DNA of 64,000 nucleotides, from NCBI GenBank assembly GCA_022494885.1, contig JAGVSM010002361.1, positions 186,001 through 250,000 of the forward strand, in the 5' to 3' direction. Position 1 is the stretch's first letter. Every line of letters starts with the position of its first letter. A program made the translations under genes and the position numbers. Shown here piece after piece: positions 4,540 through 63,911 of the stretch. Source of the stretch: Micrasema longulum. Lineage: Eukaryota > Arthropoda > Insecta > Trichoptera > Brachycentridae. The notes under the pieces were generated by a model. That model ran no database searches. It was not told where the DNA came from and saw nothing but the letters and a program-made list of their open reading frames with translations.

Positions 4540-4735
4540 GACTAGTTTCTTGTTTTAGTGTGTAAAGTGGCCACTTAAACCAGCCAATGACAGATCATAA
4601 TCCCTGTAAATGCCTAGACTCCCATACTCCTTTCTCAATAATATTTTCCCTCTCTGTTGCAATATGTTTAAGTATGAATGAATCCCTAAAGAGGAAATCC
4701 CGCCAGTCTGCAAGCATTTGGATATACTCAAATAT
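4540..4735 (+). mobile_element. Family Y MITE right-arm fragment
   Basis: GTGTAAAGTGGCCACTTAAA, CCAGCCAATGACAGATCATA and CCTCTCTGTTGCAATATGTT mark the right half only. The left half is missing. Confidence 0.65.
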
Positions 4736-5369
4736 TGTTAAATTATAAGAATGCTAATATTCCTTTTCTATAAAAAAAATAAATTTTACTCTTAAAACTG
4801 AAAATGTAAAACAAAACATTTTAATTTCAGCATACTCTTTCCTGGGCTGATGTAGTCCGGTGATTGGATAATTTATATAATAATTATAAACTCTATATTT
4901 AATTGATTACAATCCACTTGTTAAAATTATATACTTTACGAATAATATTCTGAACGCCTAGTCCAAACCCTAATGTGATATTATTAGAATGCCGGTAATA
5001 TTTTTTTTATTTGCTCCAAAAACCGTTTTGTGAATTCAGTCGAAATTAATAAGCCCTCTGAAAAAGGTCAACAAAAACGTATTGTATTATGCAAATGTTT
5101 TGTCCGTAGAAACCATCCCAGTGGTCCAATTCACACGTATTGTTCAAACTCACACGACACGTTAAAATGAGAGTGCTTTGATATTTACTTTATTTTTTTA
5201 ACTATTGTTTTTTTTATTTATTTAGTGGCTACTGCCAGGCAAAACCCTCGGCAAATATAAATTTAGAGCGGATTATGTGGCCTTATTGTTGGTGCATTTA
5301 GCTGCCATGTATTATTTTTGTGTTTTTTTATTGTAAATTTTTTTAAATCATTATTTTGTTGCTGAAATT

Positions 5370-5830: not shown

Positions 5831-6128
5831 AAACATATTAAATATGTAAAATAGGATTTAAATTATTTACTGAAAATTTTTGATGAAATTCCATTGTAAT
5901 GATGTAATAACTTATATTTACAAATAAGTTACTAATTAAAAATACTTGGTACACTTCCACTTATTTGTTTGACCAATTAGCGCTTTCACCCTCTAATGGG
6001 CATCTTCAGACTAGTGAATATTATACAGCGTAAAGATAATTTATATAAAACTTAAAATTATCTTAAATGTAGGTACATTTAAAAATAAGTTGTTTGAGAT
6101 TACAGAAAGCAAATTTTCAATTGAAATT

Positions 6129-6281
6129 GGCCAGGAGGCCCAATTACAGTGGTGAATTACATCACAGAACACCCAAGCTTGAGAAAATTCACAATTAATT
6201 TTTGTGTTCTCACCGGGAATCGAACCCGGAACCTTCCGTCTGTGAGTCAAGTGTCTTGACCACTACACCACGAAGGCCGCC
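6129..6281 (-). mobile_element. SINE-A copy (tRNA-derived)
   Basis: Read on the minus strand it begins with a GGCCTTCGTGGTGTAGTGGT A box, continues with a GGTTCCGGGTTCGATTCCC B box and ends with a conserved tail GGGCCTCCTGGCC. These two boxes form the internal Pol III promoter of a tRNA-like head. Five other copies occur in the window. SINE-A inserts by borrowing a LINE machinery; the partner is unknown. Confidence 0.85.
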
Positions 6282-6299
6282 AATTTTATGACACCAAAC

Positions 6300-6860
6300 A
6301 ATTATACGCTAAAACAATACTCACTTATAGATTGAAAAACTACTCTTACTCAAATAAAAGACATAACCCCCACAATACATCACATACAAATAATATAATC
6401 ACTAGATCCTCAACACATAGACAACTTAAACAAATACAAACTAAAACCACTTTTGGACAAAGGGATTTTGAGTATTATTCAATTAAAATCTATAACCTAC
6501 TTCCACTATCTATCAAAACAATTAGTAACGAGAAAATGTTTAAAAAGGCTATAAAAAAATGGATATTGGAGCTACGAAGAAGTAAAATGGATTGTCTCAT
6601 TCGCCCATACCAATATTGAATCAACTGCTCCACAAGTGTATAGCTTATGTTAGGTTTTTGTTATTTTTATTGTGTGTTTTGTAATATAAATAATATAGAT
6701 GTGCATAAATACCTTGTTTTTAAAACTGTCTGAATATTTGTTAATTATCTTCGTTTTTTTAAGTTAGTCTTCTTTGTTTATTCTCAAACGTAATTTTTTT
6801 AAAGTATATTGTTAAGTGTCCTCGACACGGGAAATCCCAGTGAGGTCAAATTATTTTTAT
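6300..6860 (+). pseudogene. 3' end of a CR1/L2-like non-LTR retrotransposon
   Basis: The peptide contains TTFGQRDFEYYSIKIYNLLP, then LSIKTISNEKMFKKAIKKWI, then a stop at 6619. The pattern aromatic-x-x-K-x-YN-LP-x-x-IK followed by FK-x-x-(I/L)KKW is the usual C-terminus of CR1/L2/Rex-type reverse transcriptases. A 3' untranslated part follows, with GACACGGGAAATCCCAGTGA near 6826, also found next to related tails at 8150 and 33470. The ORF-calling start is not a real start; the frame extends upstream to about 6283. Confidence 0.6.
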
Positions 6861-7640: not shown

Positions 7641-7945
7641 ATCATAATACATTGATGTTAGAATACCAACGCAGTGACCTCTGCACCATTAAGTGAATGA
7701 ATGGAAATGATTATGATTCATTGTGTTTCTATATTTTGAAGCTACTATATGCATTTTATATTTTCATAATTATTACGACAGAACAAGGTGACAGCTTACA
7801 AAGTCAATTTCGTGGATTTGTAAACAATTGTCATTTTTAATTAATAGATAAAAATATATTATTTATGTCCTTAGCTTTAACTTTGTGGTCAAACATTTTA
7901 ATTTATCTTATTAAATATTATTATTTAATTACTTACCCACTTTTT

Positions 7946-7988
7946 ATGTCTACCGGTTTCGTGGTGTGCCCGTCTCTTCGTCATGACA
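7946..7988 (-). ncRNA. Decayed hammerhead motif
   Basis: The minus strand carries GUGUC, AUGACGA (C3 to A), A, GAGAC, CGAAAC, ACCGGU, A, GACAU. Stem I can still pair, but the second arm of stem II has been lost. The flanks match the family repeat. Confidence 0.5.
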
Positions 7989-8109
7989 CTTACTACACCA
8001 ATATGCAAATACTGAAATACGCTTTCAGTTTTACCCCATTTCCGCATTCTATATTACATTTTCAATCATTCTGCAACATATCGTCAAATGTTATTTTTAT
8101 TTGTTCGTT

Positions 8110-8461: not shown

Positions 8462-9245
8462 GGTTAATATGGTTCGCAAGAAACCTTTTTTTTAAATTTC
8501 AGATCGCTATTGTGCACAAAAGTTGTCAATGGTATCGACCTGAAAAAAACACTTATTATTTTTTTTTTCTTGCGGTCGCGCAATGCTATCGAAGTTAGCA
8601 AAAAAATTTTAAAAACCTTAATTTTTCATCATTTAAAAAAAAAAAATAATGGTTTGAATTGCGTTCCTACACCATGAATTAACTACTGAAAGTAAGTAAA
8701 ATCCATATATATTCACTTATTAAGCATTTGTTTTATATCTTCCAGTCGCGCAACATAGTACAAAATGAGAAAAATTAGTAGTGTTTGCAAATCTTTAAGT
8801 TTGACTGTTTAGTACATTTTAATCATACGATTTTTGGACATTTATTTTATTTTTTGCCCAACAACAGGCCAGGAGGCCTAGTTACAGTTGTGAATTACAT
8901 CACAGAACACCTAGGCTTGAGAAAAATTACATTTAATTTGTTGTGTTCTCACCGGGTATCGAACCCGGAACCTTCCGTGTATGAGTCAAGCATCTTGACC
9001 ACTACACCATGGAGGCCGCCATTGTATAGTTTAATTCTATTACAAAAATATATTTAAAATCCAAGCATATAAGATAAACTTTCATATTCAAGTGGAACTC
9101 GTTCGCGCAGCTTCTGGACAGAGAGGCGAGGCGGTTTCCGTTCAGATAATTTAGAAATATTCTAATAGTAAATAATTGGTAATTTTTTTGTTTCGATATT
9201 CAATTGTTGGTGCAGCTTTTTGCTTATTTTGTTTACAAAACGGCT
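8462..9245 (+). repeat. Left terminal inverted repeat of the transposon
   Basis: It pairs with 10646-11270 on the other strand over its whole length, apart from the inserted SINE-A and small indels. The outermost shared words are GTTA..TGGTTC. The inner end is marked by TTGTTTAYAAAACG. Confidence 0.8.
8867..9020 (-). mobile_element. SINE-A copy inside the left arm of the inverted-repeat transposon
   Basis: It has the same A and B boxes and GGCC-ending tail as the other SINE-A copies. The transposon arm resumes on both sides of it, which shows that the SINE arrived after the transposon. Confidence 0.85.
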
Positions 9246-11270: not shown

Positions 11271-11364
11271 TAGTGTTTGCACCTTCTTTAACTCTGCGTG
11301 TAGTTTAATTTTTTTTTCGTAAATACTATGTTGATAAAGGTGAAAATGTATTTTAGTATATACT

Positions 11365-11395
11365 TGTTGGGTACGTCTCAAAACCGGTAGACATA
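11365..11395 (+). ncRNA. Hammerhead relic (3' half)
   Basis: The plus strand holds GGGUACGUCUC, AAAAC, ACCGGU, A, GACAU. The box side is not recognisable. It lies about 100 bp beyond the right end of the long inverted-repeat transposon, in the opposite orientation to the copy at 7946. Confidence 0.35.
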
Positions 11396-11963
11396 AAAAG
11401 TTAATAAGTAAAATAAATTACATAAATATACATGTCAAGAGTAAAAACGTTCGAAGATATTACATAAATTTAATTTCAGAAGGGTATACGTTGGTAATTA
11501 TGGCAAGTATCGTGTTATTTCTTCGTAATTTTATGTATTAAATAAATAGTGATTCAAATGAAATCTGACGGAAAAGTTGATGTATACATATTTAACATGA
11601 AAAATCGTTATAATATTAAGAGAAAGTTAGCTGTTAAAAGGTTAAATGCACGTTAAGGGGAAATTACCCATTTATGCATTATGTTCGTCATTATCTAAAT
11701 ATCCTGTAGTTAAAATGCAATTAAACTTATCAATTTCGTCCAATCTGACGACATCGCGAAGAATATTATGCGTAACCTTTCAAACATCCAAGTTCTAATC
11801 CTTTTTTTAATTTGGACTATAATTTTAATATTGTTTTGTAAATATTATTATTTAATTTAAAGAACAATCATTCTTAATAACATTGCATTGATATATATCT
11901 CAAACGCAAAGTATTTTGAAATTTAAACGAGGGTGGAAGCTTTTAAAGTCTTATTTTATAAAC

Positions 11964-12866: not shown

Positions 12867-13900
12867 ATATTACAGGAAAAAACATAACATAAATATTTAT
12901 TTTTTTTGTTAAAATAAACGGCACTCAGTACCTCTCAAATATTATTTCGAAATTCAATAATATACAAGCATACGAGTAGAATAATAAGTAAAATAAAGCA
13001 TGTAAAACAAATTAATACCGAACAGCTATTTTTAAATTAAGAAGTCTGAAAAGATAAACAGTATAAAATTTTATTGACAGTTATAAAAATATTGACTAAA
13101 AAATAATGATTGGCTATGGAAATATTTTGAACCTGTAAAAAAATGAAGAAAACAATACATGTTAACAAAGACATTAAAAACTACATGAATGGTAACAATT
13201 TATTTTGTTATTTATTTCCTAGACAAATTATTTTCATGTTCCCATCCATGTCACCAGAAGTCGAAATCTACTATTTATAAAATCTTTTAAGAGCGACTTT
13301 TGTTTTTATGCCCCAATGTCCAAAATGTGTAGATTAGTCAATACATCACACGACTTGGAATTCTTTGGGATAGATCTTCCGGCTTTTCGTAGATCTCTTC
13401 GCGACTAAACAGTATGGGATGAAGTTGGATTGGCATGGTTTAGCTCGAAGTCTTATGTTTTTCGTTTTTATGAATATATTGTATACCACTATTGTTTTGC
13501 CCCGTTTGTCTTTGCTACATAGTTTTATGTTCTTTGTTTCTTGCATTTATGTTTCTTCATGTAACACTGTTGTAATTGGCTTAGGCCGTATATATTATAA
13601 ATAAATAAATTACTAGTAAATAATGTTTATAAATATTCTCAATGAAATTTGGGATTAACTAACTAAGAGACAAGCGTTTAATATTCATTTATAGTAGAAT
13701 TATTTTTATTCCTATTAATATTTATTTAAAAAAACAAACTTAGAATTATAACTATTCATCAAAAAAATAACAAATTTATAGTGTTGGATGTTAACATAAG
13801 TTTTTAGATTTATGTTATTTATGTTCAAAGCATTACTTTATGGTCAAATATTTTAATCAACGTTATGAAATATTTGTATTCAGCCACTTGCCGACTTTTT

Positions 13901-13951
13901 ATGTATACCGTTTCAAGACATACCCGTCTCTTTGTCGCCGTAGGAACACTC
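13901..13951 (-). ncRNA. Hammerhead relic
   Basis: This copy is recognisable only by alignment to the family. It retains AAAGAGACGGGUAUGUCUUGAAAC-like order, but the box is disrupted by an insertion and the stem III palindrome has lost a C. It lies in a repeat spanning about 13810-14030 that matches 7865-8060. Confidence 0.35.
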
Positions 13952-14039
13952 ACTACACCAATATGCAAATACGGAAATATGCTTTCACACAATCTGCAAC
14001 ATATCATAAAAGACATAAAATGTCAGTATGTGGTTAAAT

Positions 14040-15225
14040 TCAAATATTTACCAACATTTATTTAATATTTACATTTAAAAATATTTTTCTCTATATATTT
14101 TATAACGTATTGAAATATAATTTTCAATAATAAATTCAAAGAAATTGAGTAGATATTGAGTTTAGAATCGAGTCATTGTTGTTGGTTATTTAGGCACATT
14201 AACTAGTTCTTCTTAATTCTGTTTTACACAGAAAATGCGTCTAAAACTATTTGAAACAATCTACAGTACCTAGAATATGCGACCAATATAACAATAGATT
14301 TACCGAGGCTGATATTTTTTGTGACAATTTATGTAAATTTAGGTCAAAAGTCATAAAAATTTTGAGAGAAGCAGATATTTAATTTTATTATTGTATTCAT
14401 ATTTTTTCATCTTGTTTTTTTTTACATTTATTATATTTAACATAATTTAAATTATTGTATTAAGCGTAAACAATTTGTTTGGTGTGAGTATGAGTGCCCT
14501 ACACTAATATACAAATAAGTTGTCAATATTTGTGTACATACTGTTTGTTTACCTAATAAAATAAATGAATAAATAAACTTTTACTCACCTCCCATGTCAT
14601 TATAATTGAAACTCGAAACTCAAGATGTTTTTTAAAATCACGTCCACAAATCAAGCCATTTGTTTAAGTAGTATAAATTTATTACAAAGATGCTTAAAAT
14701 TATTCGATTTCTTAAAAATACAGAAACATATTATAAATGTGTACATACCTAAAATACTACATGAAATTTTTATAACAAAGAAAAATTTTTAAAAATAATA
14801 AGTTCGGAAAATAATATCAGGAGAAAATTTTTTATTGTTACTTTTTTCATATTAAAAATTCAAATAAAAAATGTCCGTTTAATTATTCAAAGTGGCACTT
14901 TACTCACCTTCTGTTTATTCTAATTATGGACCTACGGATTTTGGCAGAAAATAATGGGACTGTTTTTGTCATCGTTTTGTAAAAGCACTTGAATTAAAGA
15001 TTTTTTTAAGCTTGGAGGTATAAAATCCTTAACATTCTCAGGGGTTTAATGAGCTGAGATTTAAGTTCAAATTTCGCTAAAACTCTGTTTTTCAAACACT
15101 CGATAGCTGAAGGTTGTTATTATTTAGTAAATTATTATAAAAGCAATGGCTAATCAAAGAATATTTTATTATCAAAGCCGTTGCTTACTACGTATTTAAT
15201 AAATGAATAATAACAAATATTACGA
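14040..15225. other. AT-rich, no recognisable feature
   Basis: No ORF of credible composition, no SINE head and no repeat shared within the window was found. Confidence 0.55.
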
Positions 15226-15280
15226 ATAATATTTTTAATGTTAGTAAATATTCGTTTATTACCATTTTCTGTTTATTTTA

Positions 15281-15323
15281 AGCCTACCGGTTTTGAGACG
15301 TGTCAGTCTCTTCATCACGACAC
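15281..15323 (-). ncRNA. Decayed hammerhead motif
   Basis: The minus strand reads GUGUC, GUGAUGA (C3 to G), A, GAGAC and GUCUC of stem II, AAAAC (G12 to A), ACCGGU, A, GGC. Stem II is still perfect. Two core substitutions make activity unlikely. Confidence 0.5.
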
Positions 15324-15469
15324 TTATTATACTAACATGTAAAACTTACTATACACCATAGTATTTGCACAATAATATCAAACTAACATGCTGATAGAAC
15401 ACACGTTATTCTTAGCTAACATTCGCGATACTGATTATAATAAAAATATAATAACGATTAAGTATACAT

Positions 15470-17534: not shown

Positions 17535-18610
17535 GAAAGGACTTGCCCAAGTATTTAGTTCTATTTCACATATAAAACTCTATTCTTTATCTACTGGTAA
17601 AAAATTGTATTGATGATTTTTTATAATTTGTTTTATAAAATTGGACTATTTGTTTGAATGCAATAGACTTTTTTTAGAAAAAAATTCGTATGATTTTGTT
17701 TTAAAATAAGAATAGTTGTTTTAAATATTTAATGGACTTTTATTGTATTTATATTTTCTTATATTTATTGTCATAAAATTGAGATATTTGTTTAAAATTT
17801 GCAAAAGACCAAAGCAAAACCGTATTAATAATTTCCAGTGATTTTGTCATATAATTTGTTTGAAATTTTCAGTAGATTTCAACTTAGAATAGTATTTATA
17901 ATTTCTTAAAATTATTATAATATTTTTTTTTTTTTTTTTTAATTTTCCATAAACTAAAGCAAAGCCGTATTAATAATTTATTTTGATCTTTGTTAAAAAT
18001 GGCTTTGAGTGTGCAGTGCACTGCTAAAACTAATCGATTATTAATTGAGATAAAAAAAGATGATAGAACACTACATAAGTAAGATATTGTAATACATGCC
18101 ATTTATATACTCGTTACATATACCTTAATTCAAGTGGGTCAATTTTAGATAATGACCAGCAGTGTGATTTTGAACGCTCTCGCGAGGGTACAATAATAAT
18201 ACTATTAACATATGGAACTAATAAAAAAAACTATTCAAAATAAGAAAAAAAAATGACCAAACAAACTAAATTTTCTTTTGTCTATTCTTGTCTGGTTTGA
18301 AAAATAGTATCCATCTCATTTCATACTTGGCACTTTTGCAAGAACAACATAATGAAAAAGAGTTATTGGCTCCATATGTTTCGATGTATATTTATTTGAT
18401 AATTAAAGTTATCACTGTTAAAATAAAATAGAATGAGAATCATTAGTTAAGTATACATTAATTAAAAAGCTTTTTTAGTTTTGAAATCAGTCGGTAAAAA
18501 AAATAAAAAGTAAGTCGTTCAAAAGAGAATTTTTTATATTTACTTTTAGAAAATGTGTCATTTAATTATATCTATGTGGATATTATTGCGAAGTTACCTG
18601 TTTAAAAGCT
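17535..18610. other. AT-rich, no recognisable feature
   Basis: AAAGCAAARCCGTATTAATAATTT occurs in two near-identical copies (17813 and 17957), which suggests a local duplication. A poly(T) run is at 17924-17940. Confidence 0.5.
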
Positions 18611-19600: not shown

Positions 19601-19924
19601 TCCTTCTTTCGTTTTTTTTTTTCTTACAATATTTTATAATACAAATACCAACACGAAAAATACTAAGTTAGTTCAAGTCCTGAAGATGAGAAAGTTACCT
19701 CAAAACATGTCGACGTATGACTCAAAAATCAAGTAGTTTAAAAAAACGTATACATAAATAAGTTTAGAATGTCATACCATAAGGTGAAAAATGTTTTTGA
19801 TATTAAATATATAAAATATTGATTTTAAGACTGATCACTGTGACTTCATGTAACCGATGATCGAACTACCCTGCGTTTGGTTAACAAACGCAGTTCCCAA
19901 TAATAACATAATATTAGACATAAT

Positions 19925-24219: not shown

Positions 24220-24370
24220 GGCCAGGAGACCCAATTATAGTGGTGAATAACAGAACAGACATCGTTTGAGTTAATTCACAATTTACAATCTTTTTTGTGA
24301 TCTTACCGAGAATCGAACCCGGAACCTTTCGAGCGGGAATCAAGCGTCTTAGCAATTACATCACGAGGGT
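24220..24370 (-). mobile_element. SINE-A copy, diverged
   Basis: The B box GGTTCGATTCTCGG and the GGGTCTCCTGGCC tail are preserved on the minus strand. The A box has several substitutions. Confidence 0.75.
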
Positions 24371-30830: not shown

Positions 30831-31463
30831 TATTTCTTTTCCAACAATCATTTCTCCTCTCCTTTTACTCACTTTTCTACATTAAAGGCTTATATCAATA
30901 TAAAAAATTATCCCTTTACACATATCGCATATTTTAATTTAAGGATAATGTTTAACATTTTACTCTTAAAAAAATATTCGAAGTATTGAAGCGATGACGT
31001 AATTAATTTACTAAGCACAAGAAAAGATCTTTTTTGCTAGTAAAATTTGATAATCATACAACGTATGAAAATAAAAATCTGCATATGTAAACTAACATTT
31101 TAAGTAATATATAATTTTAATACACAATTTTCCACAAGATCAAAGATTGCTTCTGTTGAGAACGGAATCTTTTCAATAATATTTTACTAAACAAATCGAT
31201 TGTACATAAGATATTTATATTGAAGCATAAAATCTCCAGTACTTTTTACTCGAGCGATCACCATTTATAGAAATTCTCCATTGACCATATCACTCGACCA
31301 TGTTATCTGTGCCACACGATATAATATTTACATACATAACGAGAGTAGTGCATACCTAAAATCAATAAGCATGCATGTTACTGCAAAACCCATTTGCATT
31401 TTTTTTTGTGTAGAGACCTTTGATGTTTGTGTGCAAACGCACTTATTTTTACTTTTTTTATTA

Positions 31464-32045
31464 ACATATTACAACAGAGATGAAGAACACTTATGAAAAG
31501 GTAATATAGAAGTCAAGGCATCTACAGGGCTTATGACCTGTCAATGGCTGGTTTAAGTGGCCACTTTACACACTGTGTAACATTCACCATTCTGCCTATA
31601 TTTGAACATGTATATTCCTTCAATTCTTTCATCTGTTGATGTTTGTGAAGTTAAAGAGCTGAAACCTTTATTTATGCGGGTGAGATTCATCTAATTAAAT
31701 TATTTCACCTACATACTAGGCAACGCCTGAAAATGTTATTTTTTCAATTTCTATACTTCTTCGTGGACCAGGTAATTTATCAACAATATTTTGAGTTTGT
31801 CCAAATTTTTGTAGACAAGGACTGGATTCAACTCCCTGGGGAGCTGTTTATATTAACATATTACAACAGAGATGAAGAACATTTATGAAAATAATAAAAG
31901 GTCATAAGCCCTGTAGATGCCTAGATTTCTATAACACCTTTTCTGAAATGTTCTTCATCTCTGTTGTAATATGTTGATATAAACAGCTCTCCAGGGAGTT
32001 GAATCCAGTCCCTATCTACAAAAATTTGGACAAACTCAAAATTTA
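31464..32045 (+). mobile_element. Family Y MITE, composite of more than one unit
   Basis: It begins ACATATTACAACAGAGATGA, runs through the full internal region (GGCTGGTTTAAGTGGCCACT, TATGCGGGTGAGATTCATCT, TAGGCAACGCCTGAAAATG) and then repeats the terminal block twice in opposite orientations around 31845-32000. The outer boundary motif AGTTTGTCCAAATTTTTGTA occurs at 31795 and inverted at 32020-32040. Confidence 0.75.
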
Positions 32046-32139
32046 GTTTACTTTTTTTATGTTAAATATTTTAAATAATAAATAAATTGTGTTTTTTAAA
32101 AAACAAACAAATACATGCGCTTATCTGAGAACCTCTATC

Positions 32140-35514: not shown

Positions 35515-36148
35515 CAACAATATTTTGAGTTTGTCCAACTTTGTAGACAACAAAAAACAGAAAACATTTTAGAGAATGAAAAATAAATTTTCAGGCATTG
35601 CCTAGTATGTAGGTGAAAAAATTGAATTAGATAAATCTCACCCGCATAAATAAAGGTTTCAGCTATTTAACTTCATTAACATCAACAGATGAAAGAGTTG
35701 AAGGAATATAGATGTTCACATATGGGCGGAATGGTGAATGTTACACAGTGTGTACAGTGGCCACTTAAACCAGCCAATGACAGGTTATAAGCCCTGTAGA
35801 TGCCTAGACTTATATTACCTTCTCTAAAATGTTCTTTATCTCTGTTTTAATATTTTAATATTAACAGCTTCCAGTCCTTGTCTACAAAAATTTTGACTAA
35901 CTCAAAATATTTTTGATAAATCTACCTGGTCTATGGAGAAGCATAAAAATTGAAAAAAATCAGGTGTTGCCTAATATGTAGGTGAAATAAATCAATTAGA
36001 TGAATTTCACTCGCATAAATATTGGTTACAGCTCTTTAACTTCACAAACATTAACAGACGAAAGAATTGAAGGAATTTAGATGTTCAAATATGGGCGGAA
36101 TGGTAAATGTTACATAGTGTGTAATGTAATCATTTAAACCAGCAAATA
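35515..36148 (-). mobile_element. Family Y MITEs, one and a partial second unit
   Basis: A full unit 35515-35900 is followed by a second 3' portion 35900-36148, both in the orientation opposite to 31464. AGCCCTGTAGATGCCTAGAC and TTAAACCAGCCAATGACAGG are readable on the plus strand. Unit arrangement suggests recombination between neighbours. Confidence 0.7.
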
Positions 36149-36184
36149 AGGTGAATATGAGTATAAAACCATTTACTGACTTCT

Positions 36185-36228
36185 GTGTCTACCGGTTTCG
36201 AGACGCACCCGTCTCTTCGTCAGGACAC
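36185..36228 (-). ncRNA. Hammerhead ribozyme motif, type I with minimal stem III (best copy)
   Basis: On the minus strand, in order: stem I strand GUGUC; the conserved box CUGACGA; one extra A; stem II GAGAC, loop GGGUGC, GUCUC; GAAA; the minimal stem III ACCGGU (sharing the last A of GAAA); cleavage-site A; and the returning stem I strand GACAC. Stem I pairs perfectly (5 bp), stem II pairs perfectly (5 bp) and the cleavage triplet reads GUA, which fits NUH. The extra A between A9 and helix II is tolerated in at least one known natural hammerhead. The self-complementary ACCGGU is typical of hammerheads that act as dimers in Penelope-like elements and retrozymes. The motif is embedded in a dispersed repeat that occurs about eight times in the window. 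Confidence 0.8.
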
Positions 36229-36293
36229 TCACTACACCAACATGCAAATACTAAAATACTCTTTCACCCTCGTCACCGTATTTACGAAAAATA

Positions 36294-37029: not shown

Positions 37030-38128
37030 ACATGTTTACAATTTCAATTTCAATTTTTCAATTTTTCAAATTTTATTTATTCATATACATGTACATCGAT
37101 AAATAAATTTGAAATTGAAAAAGGGGGTAAAATGGAATAACTTAATTCATACATATATAATTAATTGAAATAAATAGGTTAAATTATGTTTATATAAAAA
37201 AAACAGATAAGTATACATAATATTCAGAGAATAATATGTTAAAAAGTAAGAGAATCTTGTAACAAAAAACTCCCTCATAGACGTGAAAAATGTCAATGTC
37301 CAAAGTAGTATTGTTCAACATAGAGATAGCCCTTCCAACAGACATAACCATTGGCATGTTGGTCCTGTATATTGGAATGTAAAACTGTCTATGCTGACGC
37401 TGTCTAAGGTATAAGGTATCCGGAACATAAAAGCTAAGGCTCCACATAATTTCAGGGTTGTCAATAATACCGCGCAACAATCGAAATAAATGCGTTGTTA
37501 AATACACATTCCTTCTAGTCTTCAAACTGCTGTAACCATGCATACCCTGGAAGAACTCAGTGGGATAAAGTCATGGATAATATCCGCACTCCCTCATGTA
37601 GAGAAACCGACGAAATTTCTTCTGAACCTTCTCCACCATAAGAGAGTACTTCAACTCACACGGTCCCCAAATCATCGAGCTACTCTCGAGTCTACTTCGC
37701 ACCAACGAGTTATAAAGAATTCTCAGTACTCGTGGACTACCAAAAACCCTGGCAGTACGCAAGACAAATCCTAACATCTTCAACGAACTATTACAAACTG
37801 TTTCGATCTGATCATGAAATGTCAGGGAACTCACAAAAGTGATGCCTAGATCTTTAACCTTCGCAATCCGCATAAGATTCTGGTCATTCATTCTATAGCG
37901 GAAGAAAAGCGTTATGTGGGCCCTGGTGAAAGACATAACTAAGCATTTTGAAATATTAAACGATAATTTATTTCGTCTTCCCCATTTCGTATTATATCCG
38001 CCTGTAAAGTACGAAAATCATCTAAAGTTTTTACCCTCAAAAATAGCTTCAAGTCGTCCGCGAATAACAAAAACGCAATCTGACTACAACTTTTTTAATT
38101 TCATTGATAAAAATAGGGAACAGTAATG
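37030..38128 (-). pseudogene. 3' half of a jockey-like non-LTR retrotransposon
   Basis: Minus strand: FADDLKLFLRVKTLDDFRTL (the catalytic YADD-type box, as FADD), then RYRMNDQNLMRIAKVKDLGI, then SLVRSRLESSSMIWGPCELK, then MHGYSSLKTRRNVYLTTHLF. Stops or frameshifts separate the parts (near 37570 and 37940). It ends in a TTTC/AATTTC-rich 3' stretch near 37040. The catalytic DD is retained, but the frame is broken, so it is inactive. Confidence 0.8.
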
Positions 38129-38140
38129 TTGGTTAAGTAA

Positions 38141-38184
38141 GTGTCCTGACAAAGAGACGGGTACGTTTCGAAACTGGTAGGCAC
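38141..38184 (+). ncRNA. Hammerhead ribozyme motif, slightly diverged copy
   Basis: Plus strand: GUGUC, box CUGACAA (G8 changed to A), stem II AGAGAC with GUUUC, GAAAC, then ACUGGU as stem III, A, and GGCAC, which re-pairs with GUGUC (4 Watson-Crick pairs and one G-U). Same family as 36185-36228 in the opposite orientation. The change in the box probably reduces or abolishes cleavage. It lies just beyond the upstream end of the jockey-like fragment on the other strand. Confidence 0.65.
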
Positions 38185-38309
38185 AAAAAATCAGTAGGTG
38201 GTCATATGCTAATATTGACTAATATTAATTCAATGTAATGCAACGATAAAAAAATAAGGAATTAAAGAGCTTGCTGAAAAAAATACCTAAAAAGTAAAAA
38301 ACGAAATTG

Positions 38310-38870: not shown

Positions 38871-39097
38871 AATTAACTATTTTACAAATTATACAAACTA
38901 TGAAAAAAGCTTTGTATGCGTAAGCAAAGCAATAAATAATCGGAACAAGAGGAAAAAAGTAACGCTAAAGACGCTTACTTCTAGATCAAATGAGATGACA
39001 ATATTCAGACGCGATATTGCAATTATGTCCAAAACATTAGTAAAAAAGATGAACAAGTTCTGATGAAGAGCCTTAATCTAAATCTCAGACCACTTAC

Positions 39098-39224
39098 CTC
39101 CCTGGTGTAGTGGTCAAGATGCTTGACTTCGATGCCCGGTGAGAGCACAAAAATTTTATATGATTTTTCTCAAGCCTTGGTGTTCTGTATTGTAATTCAC
39201 CACTGTAATGGGCCTCCTGGCTGG
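39098..39224 (+). mobile_element. SINE-A copy with deleted B-box region
   Basis: CCTCCCTGGTGTAGTGGTCA is the A-box region. About 25 bp between the head and the B box are missing (GACTTCGATGCCCGGTG follows directly). The tail ends GGGCCTCCTGGC. The deletion would disable Pol III transcription from the internal promoter. Confidence 0.75.
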
Positions 39225-47659: not shown

Positions 47660-47880
47660 AAAAAAAATGATAATGATCCTTAAGATAAAAATAACTTTAT
47701 TAAATTTACTTTCATATAACTTTGAACTATCTATCCTTACCTCTGTTTTGTATAAAAACATTGAACTCCTTAATAAAGATACCAGTCTCGAAGATGTCGC
47801 GAAAGCGATGAAACCGGTCACTGGATATTCCAAATTTATGGATTAAAGTATCACTCGTCTTTTATTTATATAATAAATTT
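47660..47880 (+). repeat. Repeat carrying the second-class hammerhead, copy 1
   Basis: TACCTCTGTTTTGTATAAAA, GAAACCGGTCACTGGATATT and AAGTATCACTCGTCTTTTAT match 58650-58865 in the same orientation. The ORF at 47651-47833 on the other strand is incidental. Confidence 0.65.
47782..47824 (+). ncRNA. Hammerhead-like motif, second class
   Basis: Plus strand: stem I CCAGU; CUCGAAGA, which equals the box CUGAAGA with one inserted C; stem II GUCGC, GAAA tetraloop, GCGAU; GAAA; ACCGGU; C as cleavage base (GUC); and ACUGG, which pairs perfectly with CCAGU. The overall architecture is that of a minimal stem III hammerhead. The inserted C in the box would probably impair the core. The surrounding 47660-47880 is a repeat whose relative lies at 58650-58865. 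Confidence 0.55.
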
Positions 47881-52830: not shown

Positions 52831-53117
52831 AAAACGTCGTTTTATTTTTCAACAAACATTCCAGCGCTTGAATTAACCAGTTCAACGACAACAGAAAACA
52901 TACCTTCTCAAAATACTACTAACTACAGAAGAGGAGCCATTCTTTGTAACAGAAAAAATCAAAAGAGTATGTCAAAAATTTTAGTTTTTGAGTGAATATA
53001 TTTTTGTGTGGAGTGACCCTGTAGAAAAATAATAAGTTTTGGTTTAGCTAAATTAAAATAACTCGTCAACTTTGTTGTTAAACATTTTATTAAATATTAT
53101 CACTTACTGACTCTTCT

Positions 53118-53162
53118 ATGTCTACCGGTTTCAAAGCGTACCCGTCTCCTCGTCAGGACAAC
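53118..53162 (-). ncRNA. Hammerhead ribozyme motif in an inverted repeat pair
   Basis: The minus strand carries an intact CUGACGA box, GAAAC, the ACCGGU minimal stem III and a GACAU stem I strand. The opposite stem I strand (GUUGUC) pairs over only three bases, and stem II is weakened by substitutions in its second strand. The flanking sequence is shared with the copies near 7950, 13905 and 15290. A second, inverted copy of the 3' half follows at 53651. Confidence 0.6.
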
Positions 53163-53650
53163 AATTAAACTAACATGCAAATCCCTCGATACACCTTCAC
53201 CACAGTTGTTGCAGAAATATACAAACCCAACGTTCTGATATGACACGTGCTTTTATTTGCAGTAAAGTACCGTGCACTGATTATAATTTATGAAAATCAT
53301 GAGCAGCGTTGCCAACCTTCATCAAACTAAAATCGGTAGATTCAGAAAAATGAATCTGTAGATTTCAGTACTTGCCAAAAACTGTTATTTTAGAAATAGT
53401 TTCACATTTTTTTCATTTTCGTTTTGGGCGAAGGAGGTGGCTTAAAAAAATAGAAATGAAAAAGGCGAAGTGTTCAAGATGATTTAAAATCAGTAGAATT
53501 ACCATTGAATTCAGAAGATCGGTAGGTTGCTCCAAAAATTGGTAGATCTACATTTTTTTCGGTAGCATTGGCAACACTGATTATGAGTTTACTGGGTATA
53601 GGGTGGCCGGTACAATAGAAGATCGTATAATGGGATATATTCAATATATA

Positions 53651-53685
53651 AGAGAGACAAGTACGTTTCGAAACCGGTAGACATT
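53651..53685 (+). ncRNA. Partial hammerhead motif (3' half)
   Basis: AGAGAC, GUAC, GUUUC, GAAAC, ACCGGU, A, GACAU are present on the plus strand. The CUGANGA box is missing. With the minus-strand copy at 53118-53162 it forms the arms of an inverted repeat of roughly 650 bp. Confidence 0.45.
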
Positions 53686-54149
53686 TAAAAGTCGGTAAGT
53701 GATCATAAACAACTATTTGGTAACATTTAATTAGTATCTTCTATAAGAAATTTGAACATAACTTCTGCTGGTAGTCATATAGTTATTACGTTTTTTTTTA
53801 CTTTGTAACAATTATTTTTGTCTTATCTGCTTATAAACTTTTGTATGCCATTTTAACCATACTTTATTAAACATATTTTATGTGACATTGTCACTGCGCA
53901 CTGCACATACGTCTGACTGGAAATTTGTGAGTGAAAAAGTGTCTTACAAGTCTTGTCTTGTCTTTTTTCTTCAAATGTTTTCTTAGTAGCCTAGGAATTT
54001 TATATTTAAACACCAAATGTTTCATAACCAGCTGATTTTTGCACATATGTTCCAGATGTGGTACTCAATTATTACTTAAAACTCCCCACCCTTTCCCCGC
54101 TTGCGTTAGATATTTAATTATACAGGATGTCCGGTGGTATATTATATTT

Positions 54150-54555: not shown

Positions 54556-54572
54556 TTCATATTGTTTATTAA

Positions 54573-54902
54573 ACCCTGTCACATCCGAAACCACGATGAT
54601 CAGTAAGAGCAAGAAGACATATTGTCATATTAAAATATTTTTTTAGAACAAATAACATTTTTAAAAATAAAATATTAAAAAAAAACAAATGGTTTTTTAC
54701 TTCTGCAGCGGAGAAACGAGGAGGGGGGAGGGGAGTCTGATACACCGCGCTCCCCTCACTTCTCTCCTGCAGAAGTAAGCAACCAGTTGTTTTTTTAAAA
54801 TATTTTATTATTGAAAATTTTCTTTCTTCTAAATTATGTTTTTAATATGCTTATATGTCTTCTGCCCATACCTGATCATTGTGATTTCGGATGTGACAGG
54901 GT
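54573..54902. mobile_element. MITE with TTAA target duplication
   Basis: The ends ACCCTGTCACATCCGAAA and its complement at 54885-54902 are flanked by TTAA at 54569-54572 and 54903-54906. The inverted repeat extends about 70 bp (ATGATCAG.., GAAGACATAT..). In the centre is a second, GC-rich palindrome (54699-54778) whose arms start CTTCTGCAG. TTAA duplication points to a piggyBac-type transposase in trans. Confidence 0.8.
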
Positions 54903-55144
54903 TTAAAGAACATCTTGTATACTTAAAACCGTTATAACTTTTTAAGACAAGCAGCTAGAATAATTTGGAGTATGGTGTTTTAATCACAAAATTCCGTTTT
55001 TGTTCATTACGAAAAAACGTTGGTTGAAAAAATGGGGAGTTTTAATTAATAATTAAGTACCACATCTAGAACACATGCACTATAATCAGCTGGTTATAAA
55101 ACATTTTATGTTAACTATTTTTGGTCTAATATTCCTGGGCCCCG

Positions 55145-56356: not shown

Positions 56357-56405
56357 TATCTACCGACCGGTTTCAAAGCTATACAAGCTTCTATATCAGA
56401 GTATA
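56357..56405 (-). ncRNA. Possible hammerhead relic, third sequence type
   Basis: The minus strand has CUGAUAU in the box position (CUGANGA expected), a stem AAGCU/AGCUU, then GAAAC, ACCGGU, C (GUC cleavage triplet) and GGUAGAUA. The last strand pairs partly with the bases before the box. Two substitutions in the box argue against activity. Confidence 0.4.
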
Positions 56406-58649: not shown

Positions 58650-58865
58650 ATAGAGCGTATTTATGTAAATACGAATGGATATCTTAGTTTAATTAACTTT
58701 ACTAAAATTTTGAATTCTCTATTCTTACCTCAGTTTTGTATAGATACATTGAATTTCTTAATTAATATACCAGCTTCGAAGATGTAGCGAAAGCAATGTA
58801 ACCGTTCATTGGATATTCAAAATTTGTGTATTTAAGTATCACTCGTCTTTTGTTTTTATAATAAA
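58650..58865 (+). repeat. Repeat carrying the second-class hammerhead, copy 2
   Basis: TACCTCAGTTTTGTATAGAT, GTTCATTGGATATTCAAAAT and AAGTATCACTCGTCTTTTGT are the counterparts of 47660-47880. Confidence 0.6.
58770..58812 (+). ncRNA. Diverged hammerhead-like motif, second class
   Basis: This is the homologue of 47782-47824: CCAGC, UUCGAAGA, UGUAGC, GAAA, GCAAU, GUAA, CCGUUC, AUUGG. Stem I still pairs mostly (CCAGC/AUUGG with wobble), but GAAA has become GUAA and stem III is broken. Read as a decayed copy. Confidence 0.4.
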
Positions 58866-61630: not shown

Positions 61631-61855
61631 GGATGGCAAGCCCTACTATTTTTATAAATATTTAACCTTGTTGTTAATATGTTTGTATTTTAAATAAATA
61701 AATAAAATAAAATTGAAATGGCTACTTTACCTCTGTAACTTTCAGATAGATAGTTATTTATTTATTTACCGCAACATATCGATTCCTAAGAACAGGCATT
61801 GCCCATGTAGTAACTGATAAATTTCATTTATTTATGTTATTTTTGCAACACAATA

Positions 61856-62005
61856 GGCCAGGAGGCCCAATCACAGTGGTAAATTACATCACAAAACACC
61901 CAGGCTTGAGAAAAATTACATTGTTTTTTTGTGTTCTCATCGGGAATCGAACCCGGAACCTTCCGTGTGTGAGTCAAGCGTCTTGACCACTACACCACGG
62001 AGGCC
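61856..62005 (-). mobile_element. SINE-A copy, well preserved
   Basis: The minus strand carries an intact A box TGGTGTAGTGGTCAAGA and an intact B box GGTTCGATTCCC, with the conserved tail. It closely resembles the 8867 copy, which suggests a relatively recent insertion. Confidence 0.85.
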
Positions 62006-63756: not shown

Positions 63757-63911
63757 GATGGAAGTTTTTCATTGCTAAGACGCTTGACTCATACATAAAA
63801 TGCTCCAGGTTTGATTTCCGGTAACAAAACAAAAAAATGTGTTTTTTCTCAAACCTGGGTGTTATGCTGTAATTGTGACAACACAATGATTTGGCCTTCT
63901 GGCCTGTTGTG
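63757..63911 (+). mobile_element. SINE-A copy, diverged head
   Basis: Plus strand: GCTAAGACGCTTGACTCA, B box CAGGTTTGATTTCCGG, CAAACCTGGGTGTTATG and a final GGCCTTCTGGCC tail. The A box is poorly preserved. Confidence 0.7.

Follow-up and report, generated by a model that had tools for sequence, protein, structure and literature searches.

The hammerhead motif and its repeat

On the minus strand of Micrasema longulum contig JAGVSM010002361.1, positions 36185–36228 of the window (the whole 64,000-nucleotide stretch that was analysed) read directly as a complete type I hammerhead sequence. This motif, designated c36, lies in a dispersed repeat, family A, and is made up as follows.

36185..36228 (-), c36, minimal type I hammerhead of family A (direct reading, descriptor scan, shuffles)
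36224..36228 (-), stem I 5' strand GTGTC, with its partner GACAC at 36185–36189 (direct reading)
36217..36223 (-), core CTGACGA, C3 to A9 (direct reading)
36216 (-), extra A at the junction of A9 and stem II (direct reading)
36200..36215 (-), stem II GAGACG/CGTCTC with a GGTG tetraloop (direct reading, fold prediction)
36197..36199 (-), core GAA, G12 A13 A14 (direct reading)
36191..36196 (-), palindromic stem III ACCGGT, A15.1 to U16.1 (direct reading)
36185..36190 (-), A17 at 36190 and the stem I 3' strand GACAC at 36189–36185 (direct reading)

Stem I consists of five Watson–Crick pairs (36228–36224 with 36189–36185) and stem II, counted as 5 bp in the original prediction, can be read as 6 bp. 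Direct reading of the minus strand from 36228 to 36185 bore out that prediction both in its list of hammerhead elements, all of which were found, and in the perfect pairing of stems I and II (5 bp and 6 bp). Stem III can be fully paired only between two RNAs. The residues C3 U4 G5 A6 N7 G8 A9, G12 A13 A14, A15.1–U16.1 and H17 are all present in c36 and in the family A consensus. Judged by its sequence, c36 is a genuine relic of a hammerhead, of the minimal dimer type, and its cleavage would be predicted at 36190/36189.

The motif had been placed inside a dispersed repeat, and this was confirmed. BLAST and profile searches recovered eight copies of family A in the window (E values 2e-39 to 9e-19), all passing E < 1e-18 with a profile that was built from these same eight copies; a ninth, at 14011–14062 (+), is weak (E 3e-5). 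The eight copies are listed below.

36151..36289 (-), copy that holds c36 (nhmmer, profile of copies)
7900..8035 (-), copy with core residue C3 changed
11314..11418 (+), copy with the 5' half of the motif deleted (stem I, CTGANGA and the 5' strand of stem II)
13854..13996 (-), copy with a disrupted core and a weak inverted partner at 14011–14062 (+)
15236..15360 (-), copy with C3 and G12 changed
38126..38239 (+), copy with G8 changed, inverted relative to c36
53075..53210 (-), copy with an intact core, weakened stems and G as the extra base
53653..53730 (+), partial copy, inverted partner of 53075–53210

The best preserved of these is c36; among the six longer copies, all core residues are kept only here and at 53075–53210. 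Outside the window we sampled the same contig over 200 kb, of which 196 kb were distinct, and the starts of eight other contigs over 80 kb in all; these 276 kb yielded nine more copies (E <= 0.01), seven on the same contig and two on other contigs. For an assembly of 584,481,819 bases, simple proportion puts the family, as a rough extrapolation, at some 19,000 copies.

Where adjacent copies are separated by under 2 kb, they face in opposite directions in six of six pairs with the weak copy at 14011 included. Leaving it out gives four of five, since 13854 (-) and 15236 (-) then become same-strand neighbours. The inverted pairs are the following.

Window: 13854(-)/14011(+), 14011(+)/15236(-), 36151(-)/38126(+) and 53075(-)/53653(+)
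Sampled stretches: L152 4688(-)/5026(+), extending over 4688–5160, and L165 6232(+)/6431(-), extending over 6232–6556

The copy nearest to c36 is 1.8 kb away and inverted. Among the 17 copies of the window and the 276 kb sampled there are no head-to-tail pairs, and a same-strand family A neighbour within 1 kb was detected for none of them. Since inverted neighbours cannot supply a dimer in cis, the present copies are unlikely to cleave unless two RNAs meet.

The window contains other repeats. A tRNA-derived SINE-like family is represented at 6205–6277 (-), with a weak tRNA match of 29.1 bits, and has relatives at 61852–62005, 8867–9021, 24220–24369, 39097–39221 and 63777–63904. Palindromic or inverted MITE-like repeats, with copies up to 90% identical, occur at 31459–31753/35570–35860, 31782–32048 and 54563–54912. 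Related sequence ends at 36147, adjoining the hammerhead repeat; at this position ends another repeat, family D1, next to the family A copy of c36. We also take ORFs of the window to be LINE-like, and a protein search with one of them gave six unnamed proteins. These ORFs and the type of hammerhead suggest an animal, while the assembly size and a G+C content of about 31% point to a eukaryote.

Conservation, pairing and the inserted base

We aligned 15 copies of family A, namely the eight of the window and the seven from the same contig, leaving out the two from other contigs and the weak ninth, whose score was under the cut-off. Their consensus is a complete hammerhead. The ribozyme columns match it in 87.4% of cells (499 of 571), compared with 78.1% (378/484) in the 5' flank and 80.0% (428/535) in the 3' flank, in an alignment whose anchoring on the motif somewhat favours the motif over the flanks. 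The core positions, at 90.1% (127/141), rank with the best conserved columns of the family and the stem III columns reach 90.1% (73 of 81 cells), while stems I and II (86.5%) show barely more conservation than loop II (85.5%). G8 has become A in five of the 12 copies with a letter there. This residue is the G of the CpG in CTGACGA, and methylation decay of the CpG may be the cause. The copies of family A are decayed relics.

Conservation of the paired positions across genomic copies had been put forward as a check on the motif. In seven aligned copies such conservation is present, the named pairs forming in 90.2% of 92 cells as against 21.8–44.7% with slid partners, but compensatory change is absent from them: no pair is changed on both sides. 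Moreover, shuffled 3' letters pair as well in 500 of 500 shuffles of the same seven copies. Given the lack of two-sided changes and the equal performance of the shuffles, covariation lends the stems no independent support.

The lowest-energy monomer folds predicted for c36 and for the consensus are not hammerheads. For dimers, the lowest-energy prediction is a double hammerhead with the consensus sequence (-33.9 kcal/mol) and a different structure with c36. The expectation of activity mainly as a dimer stands in part: the palindromic stem III fits a dimer mechanism, as does the consensus dimer fold, but the predicted dimer of c36 itself departs from it. A dimer mechanism has been described for Penelope-like hammerheads (PMC7761336) and for newt and axolotl hammerheads (PMC7229834), and a palindromic stem III occurs in several hammerheads, of which the Aedes and Nematostella examples are presented as possibly dimeric (PMC3088659).

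The additional base between A9 and stem II, which was originally described as unusual, is indeed present. It is not a quirk of c36, since all 13 family A copies that cover the position keep it (12 with A, one with G), and it has precedents; the two copies from other contigs also have A here, as judged by eye. It is T in families B, C and D, which are described below. In known hammerhead alignments, insertions at the junctions of CUGAnGA with its neighbouring stems amount to at most one or two bases (PMC10085705). An insertion common to several families of one genome is not reported in the portions of the literature searched, which lay outside the main Penelope hammerhead papers.

These observations raise the possibility, which we advance tentatively and regard as doubtful, that the extra base is a maintained feature of a subclass of dimer-type hammerheads. 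It might serve, for example, to favour the double-hammerhead fold, and would be found in several unrelated-looking families of one genome (as A in family A, as T in family B and, less certainly, as T in families C and D); standard models would then miss perhaps tens of thousands of copies. The extra base across the family poses a cheap and testable question, namely whether the hammerhead core tolerates the insertion or uses it.

Chance expectation and further hammerhead repeats

A hammerhead descriptor, written after the motif had been seen, allowed no or one extra base and a stem III that is either palindromic or paired. Its three matches in the window, all on the minus strand, lie at 36223, 53156 and 6009; over 200 dinucleotide shuffles it gave one in total. 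When stems I and II were both required to be at least 5 bp, 200 shuffled windows contained no locus. A hammerhead of the strength of c36 is very rare by chance.

A hammerhead covariance model had been named as a further check, and here Rfam gave no hammerhead match to c36. The whole window returned one weak tRNA match and no hammerhead at gathering scores, the c36 region (2501 and 101 bases) returned no hammerhead at E <= 10 and the family B motif gave no hammerhead match either. The viral contig L112 served as a control: its hammerhead is complete (stems I and II of 6 bp each, stem III a hairpin) and has an extra T in the same place. Its score against RF00163 in a search of 101 bases was 24.7 bits, short of the cut-off of 34, and a joint Rfam search of three loci (37 kb) at E <= 1 missed it. 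As a complete hammerhead with an extra base thus also falls below the cut-off, the silence of Rfam on c36 is weak counter-evidence; it says little for a motif that in addition has no stem III hairpin. As c36 shows, reading the raw sequence can reveal a minimal dimer-type hammerhead that Rfam passes over.

Family A is accompanied in the window by other hammerhead or hammerhead-like repeats.

5921..6069 (-), family B repeat that holds another intact hammerhead (descriptor scan; second copy in sampled stretch L164)
47691..47877 (+), family C repeat, hammerhead-like; its core holds one inserted base (CTCGAAGA-T), and its 5-bp stem I is perfect
58679..58865 (+), family C relative, a 187-nt repeat (repeat comparison)
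19680..19720 (+), family D, a weaker, decayed hammerhead-like motif
56399..56360 (-), family E, a weaker, decayed hammerhead-like motif

The family B motif, at 6015–5972 (-), reads ACTAGT CTGAAGA T GCCC..GGGT GAA AGCGCT A ATTGGT. It looks unrelated to family A and has AGCGCT as its palindrome and an extra T after A9. The stems of the family C copy at 47691–47877 are perfect, and a scan for core insertions, again written after the motif had been seen, gave a family C-like match in 0 of 200 shuffles. Relatives of family C occur in the sampled stretches L150 (two places), L151, L155, L169 and L172; in L172 a family C copy and a family A copy lie 28 bp apart on the same strand. Family E is likewise a repeat, with copies at 18429–18545 and in L151, L152, L154 and L168.

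We considered whether family A is kin to families B–E through the 3' flanks. The similarity of A to E was equalled by 17 of 3000 random segments and that of B to E by 78 of 3000; a downstream block common to A and other families is weakly significant, with 170 of 3000 random segments as good for A and B. The 3' flanks of A and C (2865/3000) and of A and D (465/3000) are not significantly similar, nor are A and B in free alignment (121/2000). Kinship by this route was rejected, the random-segment comparisons being weak or not significant. One stretch of a genome can hold several hammerhead repeat families at high density.

Origin of family A and comparison with known hammerheads

Our preferred reading, which we hold to be probable, is that c36 is a minimal dimer-type hammerhead in an old, non-coding dispersed repeat, most likely made up of relics of a Penelope-like retroelement or of one of its non-autonomous followers. 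For Penelope-like elements, hammerheads of the minimal dimer type were reportedly described by Cervera and de la Pena in 2014 and by Lunse and coworkers in 2017. Two traits of the Penelope-type minimal hammerhead, the lack of a helix III loop and the palindromic ACCGGT, are present in c36. Minimal type I hammerheads are described as numbering thousands in many metazoan genomes, usually without non-conserved nucleotides in helix III, and as being mostly dispersed in non-coding DNA, with some in Penelope pseudo-LTRs; those of Penelope may cleave as dimers (PMC7761336). In one account, an Anolis Penelope ribozyme cleaved only in the presence of its own protein (PMC11167929).

On this basis family A would consist of short truncated relics of a source element whose terminal region carried the ribozyme. 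In that element the ACCGGU palindromes of two motifs, on one RNA or on two, would pair with each other, and the motifs would swap stem I strands to form a double hammerhead, which would cut after A17, between the positions equivalent to 36190 and 36189. Most of the present copies, probably including the single c36, would no longer be processed. A Penelope-like carrier is the most likely one for family A; as there are no head-to-tail pairs among the 17 copies, we file it as a Penelope-type hammerhead only and not as a Penelope element. A Pfam search of 10 of the window's 16 ORFs of at least 110 aa gave no match to a Penelope reverse transcriptase or GIY-YIG domain.

Family A might instead be a non-LTR retrozyme, a small non-autonomous element that would be transcribed in tandem, cut by its hammerheads and circularized. 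The type I hammerhead, the AT-rich flanks, the many copies and the lack of recognized coding capacity are compatible with this, and such repeats are reported from insects and other invertebrates (PMC7229834). Retrozymes occur, however, as tandem repeats of 150–450 bp (PMC7229834), whereas no tandem array runs over a hammerhead in the window and the 17 copies have no detected same-strand family neighbour within 1 kb. The comparison with retrozymes drawn in the original prediction was not supported, there being no head-to-tail tandem in the window or the 276 kb sampled and most close neighbours being inverted. With tandem units absent from this sample the retrozyme reading was rejected; we consider it unlikely. 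We find it quite unlikely, too, that a miniature DNA transposon or SINE supplied the motif as a palindromic fragment devoid of function, and that its resemblance to a hammerhead is no more than outward. The decay of the copies, the inversion of most close neighbours, the lack of compensatory changes and the lack of an Rfam match would all suit such a look-alike, but it has to contend with 0 of 200 shuffles reaching the strength of c36, with core residues that count among the repeat's best conserved positions and with the intact family B and hammerhead-like family C, which have the same layout in the same window.

That c36 is individually maintained for a present-day role at its locus, for example in the processing of a host transcript, is very improbable. 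It is the best preserved copy of the window, with intact core and stems, as a maintained ribozyme would be; yet c36 is solitary, full closure of its stem III in cis is impossible, its nearest neighbour in the family lies 1.8 kb away in inverted orientation, and no host gene was recognized among the 10 of 16 longer ORFs scanned. Each oddity of c36 has a precedent among published hammerheads. Two points keep their interest, the maintained extra base and how densely hammerhead repeats are packed here.

The extra A in the hammerhead of chrysanthemum chlorotic mottle viroid, reportedly described by De la Pena and Flores in 2001, adjoins A9. The plus-strand hammerhead of this viroid is described as having an extra A (PMC3705267), as c36 does; the agent is a plant viroid and its hammerhead is not homologous to c36. 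Viral contigs (IMG/VR) provide further cases. A pattern allowing an extra base matched 41 viral stretches, three of which hold a complete hammerhead whose A9 is followed by an extra T.

L112 8938–8996 (+), hammerhead with extra T after A9
L119 9862–9916 (+), hammerhead with extra T after A9
L126 near 8208 (-), hammerhead with extra T after A9

These resemble c36 in being complete hammerheads with one extra base after A9. They differ in having a stable stem III hairpin, which in principle would permit activity as a monomer, and in not lying in a known repeat. Patterns drawn from family A itself found no match in the genome contig collection (38 and 22 bases) or in the viral contig collection (19 bases). 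A 16-base pattern matched 104 viral stretches, none of which (0/104) has a complete hammerhead by the descriptor; these matches look like chance.

The newt and axolotl hammerhead HHR_Amex1 is described as having a palindromic tetraloop on helix III, closed by a single pair, and as being efficient only as a dimer (PMC7229834). It is found in tandem units of about 330 bp and keeps its loop 1–loop 2 contacts, which is not the situation in family A; c36 has a plain 5-bp stem I with no loop 1 recognizable by eye. Family A differs from Penelope-like elements in that neither a Penelope gene nor a tandem of pseudo-LTRs was detected next to its copies, and the base inserted after A9 may be a further difference. 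The minimal hammerheads of Penelope-like elements share with c36 the same type I order of parts, a helix III without a loop and a palindromic stem III and, like family A, they are present as many copies dispersed in non-coding DNA.
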